Shown piece by piece: positions 1,190 to 13,476 of a stretch of DNA of 17,402 nt (within the stretch, counting starts at the first letter, position 1; each line of letters opens with the position of its first letter). Location of the stretch: the NCBI GenBank assembly GCA_030431355.1, contig JAUIJG010000053.1:1-17402 (forward strand), given 5' to 3'. The position numbers and the translations under genes are program-made. This DNA comes from a bacterium (GTDB lineage Bacteria; Cyanobacteriota; Vampirovibrionia; Obscuribacterales; Obscuribacteraceae). The notes under the pieces are model-generated. The model was not told the origin of the DNA. It saw only the letters and a program-made list of their open reading frames with translations, and ran no database searches.

Positions 1190-2185
1190 ATGTCAAAGGC
1201 ATTTAATTTGATCCTACCGGAGAAGTTATCCCCTGGTGACACGGTCGGTATAGTGGCACCATCCTCTCCGATGTTTGAAGATGGACAGATTGAGTTCACC
1301 TTTCGCTGGCTTAAAAAGCTTGGTTTGAAGTGGAAGCTGGGCGAGCATCTCAATGAGCACCATGGCGATCTGGCCGGAGTGGATGCGGCTCGCCTAGAGG
1401 ACTTTCACCGGATGTGGGCGGACGAAGAGGTGAAAGCCGTATTCCCGGTTCGTGGTGGTAATGGTAGTGTCAGATTGTTATCGGATTTAAATTTTGATCT
1501 GATAAGAAAGAATCCCAAAATTTTGATCGGCTTCAGCGACATCACCGGCTTGTTGATACCGATTCATCAAGAGACTGGAATGGTGACTTTTCACGGTCCC
1601 ACTGCCGGATCATTTTTTGACAGCGAGTATACATTCGAAAACTTCAAGAGAGCGCTCTTCGACAAGACTCCGATCGGCACCATAAAAGATCCGGATAAAC
1701 AGGATGATTACGCGCCCTCATACCCGCCTTACAGAATGGTGTTCAGTCCGGGTGAGGCTGAAGCCCCTCTTACTGGTGGCTGTCTTACTCTAATCCGGCA
1801 GCTGATGGGCACTCCCTGGGAGATTAATACCGATGGCAAGATTTTCTTCTTCGAAGACGTGGGGGAAGAGCCCCATGCCGTGGATATGATGGTCACCCAG
1901 TTATTGCTCGCCGGTAAGTTCGACAAAGTCGCGGGTGTGATTGTCGGCGAATGTGTTGAGTGCAGACCGGGTAAGAGTCGCCGCAGTCGGATGAATATCA
2001 ATTTCAGCATGGAGCGAATGTTGAAAGAGAGGCTTTCCCATCTTAAGGTGCCAGTGGTTTACGGCATGCGATTCGGTCACTCCAAGGTCAAATTTACGAT
2101 CCCGATCGGAGCGAAAGCTAGACTGAAAGCGGGAGATGATGGATTCAGTTTCGATATTTTTGAGCCCTGCGTAAGAGGCGATTGA
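1190..2185 (+). CDS. S66-family LD-carboxypeptidase / MccF-like serine peptidase, triad intact
   Basis: Peptidase family S66 contains LdcA, which trims the terminal D-Ala from cytoplasmic muropeptide tetrapeptides during murein recycling, and MccF, which hydrolyses microcin C-type conjugates. The 331-aa length is normal. The N-terminal motif GDTVGIVAPSSP (16-27) and the RGGNG loop (88-92) are typical. The catalytic triad is visible as Ser116 in IGFSDIT, Glu222 in FFFEDVGE, and His297 in RFGHSK. No signal peptide is present, which fits a cytoplasmic enzyme. The ATG at 1190 has only a weak upstream ribosome site. Five bases after its stop a second S66 gene begins, so the two should be cotranscribed. 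The residues around the triad do not let me choose LdcA over MccF, so no symbol is given. Confidence 0.9.
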   Translation: MSKAFNLILPEKLSPGDTVGIVAPSSPMFEDGQIEFTFRWLKKLGLKWKLGEHLNEHHGDLAGVDAARLEDFHRMWADEEVKAVFPVRGGNGSVRLLSDLNFDLIRKNPKILIGFSDITGLLIPIHQETGMVTFHGPTAGSFFDSEYTFENFKRALFDKTPIGTIKDPDKQDDYAPSYPPYRMVFSPGEAEAPLTGGCLTLIRQLMGTPWEINTDGKIFFFEDVGEEPHAVDMMVTQLLLAGKFDKVAGVIVGECVECRPGKSRRSRMNINFSMERMLKERLSHLKVPVVYGMRFGHSKVKFTIPIGAKARLKAGDDGFSFDIFEPCVRGD

Positions 2186-2190
2186 TTTAA

Positions 2191-3183
2191 GTGGTGGCAA
2201 CTAAAAATTCCGAGTCAAAGGATGAGGTTCTGAAGCCTCCAGCCCTTAAGAAAGGCGACAAAGTGGCTTTGTTGGCACCATCTTCGAGACCATCCAGCCA
2301 TGTGGAGGTAAGCAGAGCAGCCGCTCTGGTAAAAGAGATGGGCTTCAAGCCGATTATCGGTAAACATGTACTCGATTCCCATGGGTACATGGCGGGTTCG
2401 GATAGAGATCGTCTGGCTGATTTAAACGATGCCATACGTAATCCTCAGATAAAAGGTGTTTTCATGCTTTGCGGAGGCTACGGTGCCCTGCCGCTGCTTC
2501 CCCATATCGATTATGACCGGGTGAAAAAGGATCCTAAAGTCTTTGTCGGCTCCGGTGATACCACTTCGATACTTCTCGCCTTGCATAAAGTAACCGGCTT
2601 AGTGGTTTTTCACGGACCAAATCTTATAGATATCAGAGACAAACAAAGTTTCAGGAAATATGCTCGTGGTATCAAAAGAAGAGCCGCTCTTCCTTTTATC
2701 GCACCGAATGAAGGATTCAATGAGAGGAAAGGAGAGTTCCATCGCTATTGTTATTCCGGTCTGGAGAGTAACTCCACCCCGAAGGGTCGATTGATCGGTG
2801 GTAATCTGACAGCCATGACCTCTCTTCTGGGAACAGAGTTCGAAGTCGATTGCAAGGACCGCATACTTTTTCTAAATGACTCCCAGGAGCGTAACGACAT
2901 TCTCGACCGCTGGCTTACCTCTCTCACCATAAATGGTGCTCTTGATGATGCTAAGGCTTTAGTCTTTGGTGAATTTATAGACTGCTACCAGAGGGGCTCT
3001 TACAGTATGCACTCCATTTTTGAATTGATTCTGGAGAGAATGCACCGTTTGAAACAACCACACTTGCTCGGCTTCCCTCTTGGCGAAGGAGGCGTGACCT
3101 CTGTTTTACCGATAGGTGTTCGAGTAAAGCTCGACAGTGAATGTCGAATGTACTTTCAGGAAAGGGCACTGGCTTTGCCTTAA
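2191..3183 (+). CDS. S66-family pseudoenzyme (LdcA/MccF-like fold, all three catalytic residues replaced)
   Basis: This is a full-length (330 aa) S66 homologue beginning at tandem GTG codons (2191/2194), with AGAGG at 2174-2178 as the probable ribosome site inside the end of the preceding gene. It aligns with its upstream neighbour over the whole length: GDKVALLAPSSR (22-33), CGGYGALPLL (94-103), VVFHGP (138-143), GRLIGGNLTAM (199-209), LPIGVRVKL (306-314). At the catalytic positions it differs. The nucleophile motif reads GSGDTT with Gly122 where the paralogue has Ser116, Asn229 in FLNDSQ replaces Glu222, and Glu299 in PLGEGG replaces His297. The scaffold is well conserved with no frameshift or stop, so it is not a decaying pseudogene. 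I infer a binding or regulatory role, perhaps as partner of the active upstream enzyme. Ser121 sits one residue before the usual nucleophile position, so a shifted active site cannot be excluded from sequence alone. Confidence 0.85.
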   Translation: MVATKNSESKDEVLKPPALKKGDKVALLAPSSRPSSHVEVSRAAALVKEMGFKPIIGKHVLDSHGYMAGSDRDRLADLNDAIRNPQIKGVFMLCGGYGALPLLPHIDYDRVKKDPKVFVGSGDTTSILLALHKVTGLVVFHGPNLIDIRDKQSFRKYARGIKRRAALPFIAPNEGFNERKGEFHRYCYSGLESNSTPKGRLIGGNLTAMTSLLGTEFEVDCKDRILFLNDSQERNDILDRWLTSLTINGALDDAKALVFGEFIDCYQRGSYSMHSIFELILERMHRLKQPHLLGFPLGEGGVTSVLPIGVRVKLDSECRMYFQERALALP

Positions 3184-9571: not shown

Positions 9572-9880
9572 TTCTGACTCGGTCAAAGGTTTAATCGACC
9601 AGGCAAGCGGTCGAGGCGTTTTCAAAATGTCTCGACCGTTTGCTATTCTGAATTTGAACCTGTCGCTAAAGTTTCAAGAACTTGGAGCCTGTCTTAATAT
9701 TCGCAATGTTCTTAATGAATTTCCTTGGGTTTGAATTCTCTGGAAATCCTTATCAACAGTCGGCTTTGGCAGTGGAATGATTTCTATTGTCCGGGAAGGT
9801 TTTGAAGGTATTCCTCAATTCACTTTTGTTTGAGGCTAAAAACAATTATTGTAGAAGCTGACTTGGAGGGGTATTTTAAA
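9572..9880. other. 309-base gap between sigma factor and hypD
   Basis: No gene is seen. The first 70 bases hold three arms of one complementary sequence and a long hairpin (see the terminator entry at 9603-9643). The rest shows no convincing promoter. The longer reading of hypD from a TTG at 9830 would fall in its last 51 bases. Confidence 0.5.
9603..9643 (+). terminator. Long hairpin after the sigma gene, probable terminator or attenuator
   Basis: GCAAGCGGTCGAG (9603-9615) pairs with CTCGACCGTTTGC (9631-9643) over 13 positions, one a G-T wobble, and the intervening bases continue the pairing almost to the tip (TTTT-C-AAAA). The stem is strong but only TATTCTG follows instead of a T-run, so it may terminate poorly or act as an RNA 3' end stabiliser. 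A third arm TCGACC at 9595-9600 can pair with GGTCGA at 9609-9614 instead. Confidence 0.5.
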
Positions 9881-10987
9881 TTGTTTGCCAGGCAAGAACT
9901 CGGTTTCCCGGCTCAGAAAATCGACAGCAAGAAACTTGAGAAGTTGGCAAAGAAACTGGACTCAGTGTCTTCTCGCCCCTGGACAATCATGGAAGTATGC
10001 GCCGGCCAGACCAGAACTATGCTGGAGAACAATCTGGACCAGCTCATTCCATCCAATATCAACCTGGTCCATGGCCCGGGATGCGCTATTTGTGCCACTC
10101 CTCTCAACAAAATTGACAAGGCGATTGAGATTGCTCAGCAGGAAGACGTTATTTTCTGTTGCTCGGGAGAACTCTTAAGATTAAAGGGAAGTCGGCTTGA
10201 TCTGTTGGAGATAAAGGCCGGTGGCGCCGATGTTCGAGTTGTGCCATCTCCTCTGGACTCTCTGGCTCTTGCTCGAAAGCACCCCGATAAGAAAGTTGTC
10301 TTCTTTACCATCGGATTTGAAACTAAGGCGGAGTTAAACGCTCTTTCTGTCTGGCAAGCGAAACGTCTGGGTTTGAAAAACTTCTTCCTCTTACCTTCCC
10401 ATCCCCTGGTGGTATCAGTTTGCTCTAAAGTTTTGAAATCACTGGAAAGCCAGGTTCAGGGAATTCTTTCTCCCGGAGAGGTCTGTGCCGTCACCGGTTT
10501 TTCGAATTATGAAAGAGTGGCTAAGAAGCACAATGTTCCCATCGTCGTCTCCGGATATGAGCCGGTGGACTTGCTTGAGGGGTTGTTGGAGTGTGTAAAA
10601 ATGCTGGAGTCAGGCAAAGCCAGCATCAAAAACATGTTCCGACGTGATGTTTCAAGGGACGGCAACAAACAAGCAAAAGCGCTTATCGGCGATGTTTTCG
10701 AGATGGTCGATAGTGAATGGAGAGGTATCGGTCTGGTTGAAAACGGTGCTTATGCACTGAGACCGGAGTATGCCCAGTTTGATGCCGACAAAGCTTTTCC
10801 TCTCGAGGTCTCATCGCGACCAGACGCGGATTTTTGTATTAGCAATCAAATTTTATTGGGATTCAAGAAGCCTACTGATTGTCCTGCTTTCGGTAAGAGT
10901 TGCCGACCCAGTGATCCCCAGGGTTCAACCATGGTATCAAATCAAGGTACCTGCTTTACTTACTACAAGTTTTTGCATGACCACTAA
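9881..10987 (+). CDS. hypD: HypD-family [NiFe]-hydrogenase maturation protein, divergent and orphan
   Basis: HypD carries a [4Fe-4S] cluster and, with HypC, assembles the Fe(CN)2CO unit of [NiFe] hydrogenases in the cytoplasm. I choose TTG 9881 because GGAGGGG (9865-9871) lies nine bases upstream and because it places the conserved cysteines at 40, 68 and 71, nearly as in E. coli HypD (41, 69, 72). A reading from TTG 9830 adds 17 residues. Motifs are IMEVCAGQTR, VHGPGCAICATP, SPLDSLALARKHPDKKVVFF, IGFETK, VSGYEPVDLL, and the C-terminal DCPAFGKSCRPSDPQG then MVSNQGTCFTYYKF. Odd points: the usual C-G-G-H-T-H reads C-A-G-Q-T-R, GPGCPVC reads GPGCAIC, and the usual P-G-H-V-S reads P-G-E-V-C. No other hyp gene or hydrogenase lies in the window. 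The family assignment is firm, but the classical function is less so. Confidence 0.88.
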   Translation: MFARQELGFPAQKIDSKKLEKLAKKLDSVSSRPWTIMEVCAGQTRTMLENNLDQLIPSNINLVHGPGCAICATPLNKIDKAIEIAQQEDVIFCCSGELLRLKGSRLDLLEIKAGGADVRVVPSPLDSLALARKHPDKKVVFFTIGFETKAELNALSVWQAKRLGLKNFFLLPSHPLVVSVCSKVLKSLESQVQGILSPGEVCAVTGFSNYERVAKKHNVPIVVSGYEPVDLLEGLLECVKMLESGKASIKNMFRRDVSRDGNKQAKALIGDVFEMVDSEWRGIGLVENGAYALRPEYAQFDADKAFPLEVSSRPDADFCISNQILLGFKKPTDCPAFGKSCRPSDPQGSTMVSNQGTCFTYYKFLHDH

Positions 10988-11016: not shown

Positions 11017-12963
11017 TCAGGGTTTCATCGGCAATGAGTTGCCCACCACAGCGAAGAAAAATGCCACCCCACCCAGTATCACCAGTACTTTATTCTTCGG
11101 CATCTCGTGTAGCTTTTCCATACCTATGAATTGCAGGTAGAGGCTGAAGCCGAATGCACCGATACCGAATATGACTCCGATCATTCCGGACTGCAATCCG
11201 CCTATCAAGAGCGCTAACTGACTATATGCCATCACTCGAAAGTTTTCCAGGAATGATTTTTCGCTTCCATAAAGCGTAAATAGCTTCCAGACCATGAATG
11301 TGGCAACTCCGGTAAATACCAGAGAGACAAACATGAATCTGAGGGTATAGAAAAGATTGATATGGCTCAGTCCCTGCAAGATACCGCCTATAGTGGCGCA
11401 GGCAATTAAAAACAATGCGGGCTCGACGATATTGCCTGGCTCTGAGGGCTTTGAGAAGAATTCTTTCGGGGTTAGGGCAAGCTCTTTAGCCTGCAAGATC
11501 AGAAGCTGAACAAGGGCATGGGTATCAGGATCCTGTACTATTTTTTCGAACTTCTTCAAATCAACCTTGTCTTTTATAGAGCCGCCTTTCTCTTTCTGAG
11601 ACCTGGGATTCGCAGAATCATCCGGATCAAAATCTTCCTGGTTAATCTCCTGGCCAGCCCCCTGTTGTTCGCCGGGCATCATATTGTTCGTCGGCGGTGC
11701 GCTCTGTCTCCTTCCTGGCTCCTGGTAGACATTTAGGTTGGGTTTACCGACCAGCGGAGGACGGCTGGCCTGGTTGTTTCCTGCCAGATTGCTGAAAGGT
11801 CCGGCCTGACCGAGTGGTTGATTAGGGTTTTGAGGCTGCTGCTGTTGAGGATATTGTCCCTGTTGCGGGTATTGTCCGTGAGGTGGTAGCTGCTGTTGAG
11901 GATATTGCCCCTGCTGCGGATACTGCCCTTGCGGCAGTTGCTGCTGTTGAGGGTACTGCCCCTGCTGCGGGTACTGCCCTTGCGGCAGTTGCTGCTGTTG
12001 AGGATATTGCCCCTGCTGCGGGTACTGTCCTTGCGGTAGTTGCTGCTGTTGAGGGTATTGCCCCTGCTGCGGATACTGTCCTTGCGGCAGTTGTTGCTGT
12101 TGAGGATATTGCCCCTGTTGCGGATGCTGTCCTTGCGGAAGTTGCTGCTGTTGAGGATATTGCCCCTGCTGCGGGTACTGTCCTTGCGGTAGCTGTTGCT
12201 GTTGAGGATATTGCCCCTGATGCGGATGCTGTCCTTGAGGCTGCTGCTGAGGATTTGGAATCTGAGCGCCATCATTGAAGAAGGCTTGTTGGGCATTATT
12301 CACAGGACCCTGGTTTCGGTTTTGCGCTCTGCCATCTTCAAAGAACGGCTGGGCTTTTGCATCGGCTCTCGATGCATAAGGATCCACGGCATTTGCCAGG
12401 GGCGCTTGACCAGGTTGTGTTTGCTCCGGAGGAAAGTTATTAACGGAGCCAGGATCTTGCATCGGTGCTCCTTGATGTGCCTGATTTTGTGGTCCACCCT
12501 GGGGCATATTCTGAACATTCCCTGCTCCGTGAGCAGGAATTGACGTGAAGCTTTCAAAGCCGGTTTGTCCGCGATTCTGTCCCTGGACCGCCGGACCAGC
12601 GGCATTGGGTAGATGCGCCTGGCTTTGAACATTAGCGGGTTGATGTCCTTGCATTTGCCCCTGACCCTGACTATGAGCCGTGTTCGGTTGACCTTGAGCG
12701 TGTGGCATATGCGGCTGCATCTGCGGCTGCATCTGGGCCCGGTTTGCTGAGACCTCCGGCGAAGGAGCCAGCTCTCCGATGTTAACGTTGATGGCTTCCG
12801 ATTGATAATGGGGTTGCCAGTCTGTCTCCGATGTATCGAAGCCCTGGGGCAATTTACGCGCTTCGACTACATCGGGATGATGATGCTGGAAAAAATCTTC
12901 CGGGTCGGTACTGAGATCATCACTCTGATCTGTCTGATTTTCGTTCTTCTCGTCTTGAGGCAT
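11017..12963 (-). CDS. Gln/Pro-repeat protein with C-terminal Yip1-type membrane domain
   Basis: The 648-aa protein begins at ATG 12961-12963 with a weak ribosome site. Residues 1-450 are hydrophilic, rich in Gln, Pro, Gly, Asn and His, and surely disordered. Residues 244-378 are eight tandem units of 17 residues with consensus GQYPQQGQYPQQQQLPQ. Shorter Gln-Met/His repeats occur at 78-110. Residues about 505-648 form a membrane domain with around five hydrophobic spans (513-531, 541-563, 578-594, 596-613, 625-643) resembling Yip1-family domains, preceded by a conserved-looking stretch with LLILQAKELALTPKEFF (487-503). There is no signal peptide, so the long tail is probably cytoplasmic. Yip1-domain proteins in bacteria have no settled role. 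The gene converges on hypD with 29 bases between stops and lies downstream of the DUF2934 gene, separated by a terminator. Confidence 0.85.
   Translation of the reverse strand: MPQDEKNENQTDQSDDLSTDPEDFFQHHHPDVVEARKLPQGFDTSETDWQPHYQSEAINVNIGELAPSPEVSANRAQMQPQMQPHMPHAQGQPNTAHSQGQGQMQGHQPANVQSQAHLPNAAGPAVQGQNRGQTGFESFTSIPAHGAGNVQNMPQGGPQNQAHQGAPMQDPGSVNNFPPEQTQPGQAPLANAVDPYASRADAKAQPFFEDGRAQNRNQGPVNNAQQAFFNDGAQIPNPQQQPQGQHPHQGQYPQQQQLPQGQYPQQGQYPQQQQLPQGQHPQQGQYPQQQQLPQGQYPQQGQYPQQQQLPQGQYPQQGQYPQQQQLPQGQYPQQGQYPQQQQLPQGQYPQQGQYPQQQLPPHGQYPQQGQYPQQQQPQNPNQPLGQAGPFSNLAGNNQASRPPLVGKPNLNVYQEPGRRQSAPPTNNMMPGEQQGAGQEINQEDFDPDDSANPRSQKEKGGSIKDKVDLKKFEKIVQDPDTHALVQLLILQAKELALTPKEFFSKPSEPGNIVEPALFLIACATIGGILQGLSHINLFYTLRFMFVSLVFTGVATFMVWKLFTLYGSEKSFLENFRVMAYSQLALLIGGLQSGMIGVIFGIGAFGFSLYLQFIGMEKLHEMPKNKVLVILGGVAFFFAVVGNSLPMKP
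11830..12234 (-). repeat. Eight in-frame 51-bp tandem repeats
   Basis: The repeat encodes residues 244-378 of the Yip1-domain protein. Units begin at residues 244, 261, 278, 295, 312, 329, 346 and 363. The last is one residue short, the seventh has LPPH in place of QLPQ, and the first and third carry His for Tyr. Copies differ mainly at third codon positions (for example cgg/cgc, tat/tac), so selection or old divergence preserves the protein while DNA drifts. Each unit is itself a near-duplication of GQYPQQ. Such arrays change copy number by slippage or recombination. Confidence 0.95.
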
Positions 12964-13131: not shown

Positions 13132-13476
13132 TTAAACAGCTGTGTTGAGCTCTTGCTCTGCCTTCAGCCAATCTTCGACGTCTTGACCGTGGCTTTCGCC
13201 GCGCTCAAGCCAGATGAAGTAAGCTCTCTCTGCCACTTGCTCAGGACTGAGAAGAACCGTGCCAATTGTTTTCTTGGCTGGCTCTTTAGCCGGTGCTTTA
13301 GCTTTGGGAGCTGCTTTGGTCTCAGGCTTGCTGGCTGTTTTTGCAGCCGGCGCCGGAGATTTCGCCGCTACTTTTGTGCTGGCTGTTTTTGCAGCCGTGC
13401 TTTTAGCAGCGGTGGTTTTGGTTGTTTTAGCTGTAGTGGATTTTTTAGTTGTTGTTGTTTTCTTCTTTGTAGTCAT
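13132..13476 (-). CDS. DUF2934-domain protein with histone H1-like Lys/Ala/Thr tail
   Basis: The start at ATG 13474-13476 has a strong GGAGGG (13481-13486) four bases upstream, indicating high translation. Residues 1-70 are almost entirely Lys, Thr, Ala, Pro and Ser (for example KKKTTTTKKSTTAKTTK), like the C-terminal tails of histone H1 and bacterial H1-like proteins, and are very basic and disordered. Residues 76-112 (SPEQVAERAYFIWLERGESH then GQDVEDWLKAEQEL) match the short DUF2934 domain, whose function is unknown to me. I infer non-specific nucleic-acid binding from the tail, and the C-terminal domain may mediate contacts. It has its own terminator, so it is probably a single abundant transcript. 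The low-complexity tail could vary in length between strains. Confidence 0.85.
   Translation of the reverse strand: MTTKKKTTTTKKSTTAKTTKTTAAKSTAAKTASTKVAAKSPAPAAKTASKPETKAAPKAKAPAKEPAKKTIGTVLLSPEQVAERAYFIWLERGESHGQDVEDWLKAEQELNTAV

Follow-up and report, generated by a model that had tools for sequence, protein, structure and literature searches.

An S66 peptidase gene (hereafter A) and a second gene of the same family that directly follows it (B) form a conserved two-gene unit, in which the B protein has the whole S66 scaffold without a working catalytic triad. Selection maintains B, which accompanies A from genome to genome. We lean towards a reading in which B does no catalysis itself but partners the A peptidase, binding A and modulating its cutting. 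The window, that is, the whole stretch of 17,402 nucleotides analysed here (contig JAUIJG010000053.1), contains the pair with the following features:

1190..2185, + strand: gene A, S66 peptidase (LdcA/MccF fold), 331 aa, with an intact Ser-Glu-His triad
1535..1537, + strand: codon of A Ser116, the nucleophile (Ser in 162/162 A proteins)
1781..1783, + strand: codon of A Cys198, where residue counts in the A alignment give Cys or Ser in place of the family GGN Asn
1853..1855, + strand: codon of A Glu222, triad (Glu in 162/162 A proteins)
1961..1984, + strand: A residues 258-265 (CRPGKSRR), the A-type PGxSxR loop, of low confidence in the monomer model
2078..2080, + strand: codon of A His297, triad (His in 161/162 A proteins, the remaining one being truncated)
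2186..2190, + strand: gap of 5 bases between the A stop and the B start
2191..3183, + strand: gene B, full-length S66 pseudoenzyme by domains, fold and triad loss, 330 aa, GTG start
2287..2289, + strand: codon of B Arg33 (94/94 B proteins, 1/162 A, 0/74 outgroup)
2554..2556, + strand: codon of B Gly122, aligned with the nucleophile site
2803..2805, + strand: codon of B Asn205, the GGN Asn retained in B (93/94 B proteins)
2875..2877, + strand: codon of B Asn229, aligned with the triad Glu site
2911..2913, + strand: codon of B Trp241, typical of B (88/94 B proteins, 0/162 A, 1/74 outgroup)
3085..3087, + strand: codon of B Glu299, aligned with the triad His site

Both proteins score above the cut-offs for PF02016 and PF17676 and have the S66 fold, which places both in the family. 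By its domains, fold and triad, A is an S66 peptidase with predicted peptidase activity. B, whose structure model reaches a pLDDT of 94, keeps the Gly-Gly-x-Gly motif (residues 95-98) and the GGN motif, but has Gly-Asn-Glu at the triad sites in the window, and the triad is complete in none of the 94 B proteins aligned. The first-pass annotation had described a tandem of an S66 enzyme and a full-length partner, five bases downstream, that had lost all three catalytic residues on an otherwise intact scaffold; the residues, the spacing and the scaffold are all confirmed.

Residue counts were taken from an alignment of 162 A proteins (the window, 41 loci and 120 proteins from a protein search), 94 B proteins (the window, 41 loci and the top 52 protein-search matches) and an outgroup of 74 S66 proteins. 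The 52 B matches were chosen by rank, and their end coincides with the start of Ser-Glu-His matches (P0053), so that an unbiased B count comes from the 42 proteins taken from genomes or the window. Although they too lack the triad, P0060 and the fragment P0061 were excluded from the B set, and some of the proteins and loci are conspecific. Ser, invariant at the nucleophile site of A, is found there in 74/74 outgroup proteins and in a single B protein of 94 (L161), which has, however, Asp and Gln at the Glu and His sites. Glu is present at its site in 53/94 B proteins and His in 3/94; one B protein (P0038) has two triad residues and none has all three. The Ser site of B is occupied by Asp in 55/94 proteins and by other residues in 39/94, the His site by Gln in 59/94 and by others in 35/94, and the commonest trio is Asp-Glu-Gln (46/94, or 25/42 among genome and window proteins). 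Eight residue types occur at the Ser site within the 42 B proteins from genomes and the window. Triad sites that vary so freely are more in line with disuse than with the refinement of a new site. Ser121, which the first-pass annotation had named as a possible substitute nucleophile, was rejected, as it is Ser in just 22/42 proteins. The 'LD-carboxypeptidase' annotation carried by B-type proteins (e.g., P0013, so named by its source) would be wrong as to activity.

The change between the two proteins is reciprocal: the triad is confined to A, and the GGN Asn, kept in B, is replaced in 160/162 A proteins (Cys in 135, Ser in 25 and Asn in 2, with Asn in 71/74 outgroup proteins). We considered equating this Asn with Asn220 of MccF, named in the title of entry 3tly, and rejected it, because in the alignment with Bacillus anthracis MccF Asn220 sits two residues later; we consequently claim no contact for the GGN Asn. 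The PGxSxR loop also distinguishes A: Pro260 is found in 162/162 A, 45/74 outgroup and 13/94 B proteins, Gly261 in 162/162, 12/74 and 4/94, respectively, and Arg265 in 161/162 A and 1/74 outgroup proteins, in a column that is gapped in B. In the monomer model of A, residues 262-268 have a pLDDT below 50, which may reflect flexibility or merely the small depth of the alignment (29 rows).

Searching genome contigs with A as query returned at least 80 loci. The first six of these come from records of Obscuribacterales/Melainabacteria type and have B after A; in the remaining 74, a second S66 open reading frame was not found in the DNA examined around A. A first genome scan using B as sole query returned no relative. 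One of the loci, L002, is labelled Proteobacteria, yet its A and B fall among proteins of Obscuribacterales type, and the public label looks wrong. In six of six genomes searched with PF02016, A and B are the sole S66 genes. We then surveyed 53 genomes in the order of G001 (Candidatus Obscuribacterales bacterium), an order whose name we infer. A adjoins B in 42 of them, on the same strand in 41 and convergently in one (G094), this count including pairs in which a contig end cuts one gene (B in G005, A in G130 and G018). Among the 11 unpaired genomes, two have a piece of A at a contig end (G141 and G085), two have only a piece of the B C-terminus (G147 and G082), and G127 has a short S66 fragment whose visible residues are not B-like; G112, G035, G024, G110, G145 and G116 gave neither a B-profile nor a PF17676 match. 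Wherever contig extent allowed, none of the 53 genomes had A without B. Additional S66 sequences were seen in G138 (L157, a Ser-Glu-His gene of another subfamily) and in G018 (a piece). The pairing and the triad loss thus recur through the order, the point on which the first-pass annotation had made support for its proposal depend.

Full-length B matches in the order (n = 41) score 340-477 bits. B was not seen in a partial draw of 244 genomes of the phylum (G001 included), where the best match outside G001 reached 287 bits and the nine loci read were all Ser-Glu-His, nor in 49 genomes of other organisms, where the best match reached 304 bits and 30/30 loci read from the top matches were Ser-Glu-His. 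P0060, Chloroflexota by its source label, has Gly-Glu-Gln at the triad sites and forms a long branch next to B; it is possibly a second S66 pseudoenzyme lineage, or a mis-binned contig. Among the matches listed, the largest open frame has 454 aa, and no A-B fusion was seen.

Selection acts on both genes. NG86 dN/dS ranges from 0.026 to 0.109 for B in 6/8 close pairs with measurable dS, the other two being saturated, and from 0.023 to 0.161 for A in 8/8 pairs, some pairs sharing genomes. With the exception of one gene cut by a contig end, none of the 42 adjacent B genes is interrupted. In a tree with 31 rows of each, the A proteins make up a single clade and so do the B proteins (SH-aLRT 99), as they do in a second tree (13 rows each; supports of 100/99 and 100/100), and B branches are longer than A branches. 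In free trees A groups with S66 enzymes of other phyla and B stands apart, which would argue against a recent duplication of A as the source of B; however, a joint A+B clade was not rejected by the AU test (p-AU 0.127). Judged from their sequences, A and B would make an enzyme-pseudoenzyme pair, with paralogous folds, one of them catalytically dead, held by selection.

In same-strand pairs, the distance from the A stop to the B domain start ranges from -41 to +218 bases, with overlaps or near-contacts at the junction such as ATGA (L143 and L154) and TAAATG (L159-L161). Of 21 loci, some too short to show their neighbours, 20 have an acyl-CoA dehydrogenase gene upstream and 14 an NnrD/NnrE-type gene downstream, both on the opposite strand, while 13 have an oligopeptide ABC-transporter ATPase gene nearby. 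Because the flanking genes lie on the opposite strand, the operon consists of A and B alone, and the convergent arrangement in G094 indicates that a single transcript is not essential. Between window positions 1000 and 3400, promoter-like sites show no excess (two, against a shuffle mean of 3.2), and four terminators were counted (2.4 in shuffles). Elsewhere in the window, we observed a hypD-like gene (9830-10987, + strand; HypD, 406 bits), other hydrogenase-maturation genes not being found among the window open reading frames scanned, a gene for a Yip1-domain protein (11017-12963, - strand) that has an extended repeat region rich in Gln and Pro, with a 51-base tandem repeat running for 8.1 copies (11837-12249), and a gene for a small protein (13132-13476, - strand) that combines a DUF2934 domain with an N-terminal part rich in Lys, Thr and Ala and resembling histone H1.

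In 8 of the 42 genomes (G003, G118, G041, G134, G106, G114, G098 and G140; loci L003, L133, L134, L135, L137, L138, L142 and L145), both A and B begin with twin-arginine-like N-termini, which differ in sequence between the two proteins (of the type PRRDLLSGIATALMVGITG in A and SRRSLIQSGTKALISA in B). In domain-only trees of 40 rows each, a single change per tree accounts for the signal label, in A as in B, and the two gain branches hold the same eight genomes (supports of 100 and 99); the paired gain is one evolutionary event, not several. The Tat pattern (twin arginine, hydrophobic stretch, A-x-A-like end) was recognized on visual inspection and with a simple scan. NCBIfam models gave no match above cut-off on four of the N-termini, the formate-dehydrogenase TAT model matching weakly (E 0.034). 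TatC is present in 12/12 genomes checked, including the eight, whose A and B proteins are putative Tat substrates. The window A and B have no twin-arginine-like export signal. Among the other pairs scanned, RR precedes a moderately hydrophobic stretch just once, upstream of A in G094; that stretch is broken by proline, and we did not take it for an export signal.

Among known S66 enzymes, LdcA is a murein tetrapeptide LD-carboxypeptidase (in Escherichia coli, Pseudomonas and Neisseria) and a homodimer that is not known to have a pseudoenzyme partner. A falls below the cut-off of the NCBIfam model PRK11253 (151.5 vs. 378 bits) and so, by that model, is not an LdcA equivalog of the E. coli type; B differs from LdcA by its missing triad. 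MccF and the MccF-like S66 peptidases act in microcin C resistance. The closest solved structures are of this kind both for A (4h1h, 4inj and 4e5s) and for B (MccF 3tyx and others), but microcin genes were not recognized among the window open reading frames scanned, and B again lacks the triad. Dead partners are known from other folds. CspC:CspA of Clostridioides difficile belong to the subtilisin-like proteases, a different family, and both of these partners are dead, whereas one is intact here. Excerpts of PMC12880746 describe them as bacterial pseudoproteases forming a heterodimer that acts in signalling. In Trypanosoma brucei, according to excerpts of PMC5201418, AdoMetDC and prozyme are an active enzyme and its catalytically dead paralogue, and their heterodimer is the active form. 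A and B would resemble that system in pairing an active enzyme with a dead paralogue, and differ from it in their unrelated fold, in the eukaryotic host of that system and in the status of the complex, proven there and inferred here. Like the first-pass annotation, which knew of no described S66 enzyme-pseudoenzyme operon, we found none in the literature searched, mostly outside subscription journals, which is not to claim that such a pair is absent from print. Enzyme-pseudoenzyme pairs as such are already a known kind.

Synteny, translational coupling and the joint gain of export signals support a working partnership between A and B. Most simply, B would bind A by taking the place of one subunit in the usual S66 dimer, because S66 enzymes are dimeric, as work on LdcA and MccF established, and because signals acquired separately by the two proteins would have relocated them jointly. 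Binding is also suggested by the frequency with which dead paralogues act through heterodimers, as stated in excerpts of PMC10211241 and PMC5201418. Within such a heterodimer, B might stabilize, activate or re-aim A, which would itself do the cutting, its substrates probably being muropeptides or peptides like them; the A-type loop, near the active-site region and poorly ordered in the monomer model, might serve for contact or gating. A more elaborate version, which we regard as unlikely in its entirety, makes the LD-carboxypeptidase-like enzyme of the order a heterodimer that needs both A and B and splits the work between them: A would provide the Ser-Glu-His chemistry after giving up the GGN Asn, B would provide a surviving pocket that includes it, the PGxSxR loop of A would become ordered against B, and the whole heterodimer would have left the cytoplasm in one lineage.

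Alternatively, B could act alone as a binder of peptides or muropeptides (a sensor, carrier or competitor) that holds the substrate or product of A uncut. We consider this rather doubtful. The Gly-Gly-x-Gly and GGN motifs retained in B surround the S66 active site, and with Arg74, Asp77, Lys116, Glu233, Arg240 and Cys265 near-invariant (99-100% conserved, as are Gly96 and Gly98) the pocket may survive; the transporter ATPase gene found near the pair would also suit such a role. Strict pairing with A and the putative joint export are, however, more simply explained by an action on A. The first-pass annotation had offered a heterodimer subunit, a substrate binder and a muropeptide or peptide-conjugate sensor as possible roles; partnership is supported, but a sensor controlling transcription in the cytoplasm is hard to reconcile with the eight-genome clade, where A and B alike bear export-type signals.

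It is improbable that B is a different enzyme with a rebuilt site. The frequent Asp-Glu-Gln trio could form one, as could Cys265, Ser211 and Ser275 (94, 92 and 89 of 94 B proteins), but the three triad sites are not conserved, Cys265 is common to active A (160/162) and outgroup proteins (67/74) and so is no novelty of B, and the sole column with His in at least 60% of B proteins (His141, 65/94) often has His in A and the outgroup too. We give still less credit to the idea that A and B have unrelated jobs and are linked just by an inherited, neutral tandem arrangement: the entire neighbourhood is syntenic, and vertical inheritance alone would maintain adjacency, but this leaves aside the export signals gained jointly on the same branch, the gene overlaps and the lack of any uncut A without B in the 53 genomes. 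Finally, that B is a functionless, decaying duplicate or an assembly artefact is highly improbable and already contradicted, for in spite of its faster evolution and variable triad B is full-length in many genomes, with low dN/dS, uninterrupted adjacent copies, a confident structure model and invariant residues of its own.

If B is, as we favour, a subunit of A, the S66 cell-wall peptidases, known as single-gene enzymes, would gain a two-subunit form, one partner being dead, that extends across an order. The pair would then offer a natural system for how a catalytic duplicate becomes a regulator, and a way into peptidoglycan turnover in non-photosynthetic cyanobacteria, a group that has received little study.
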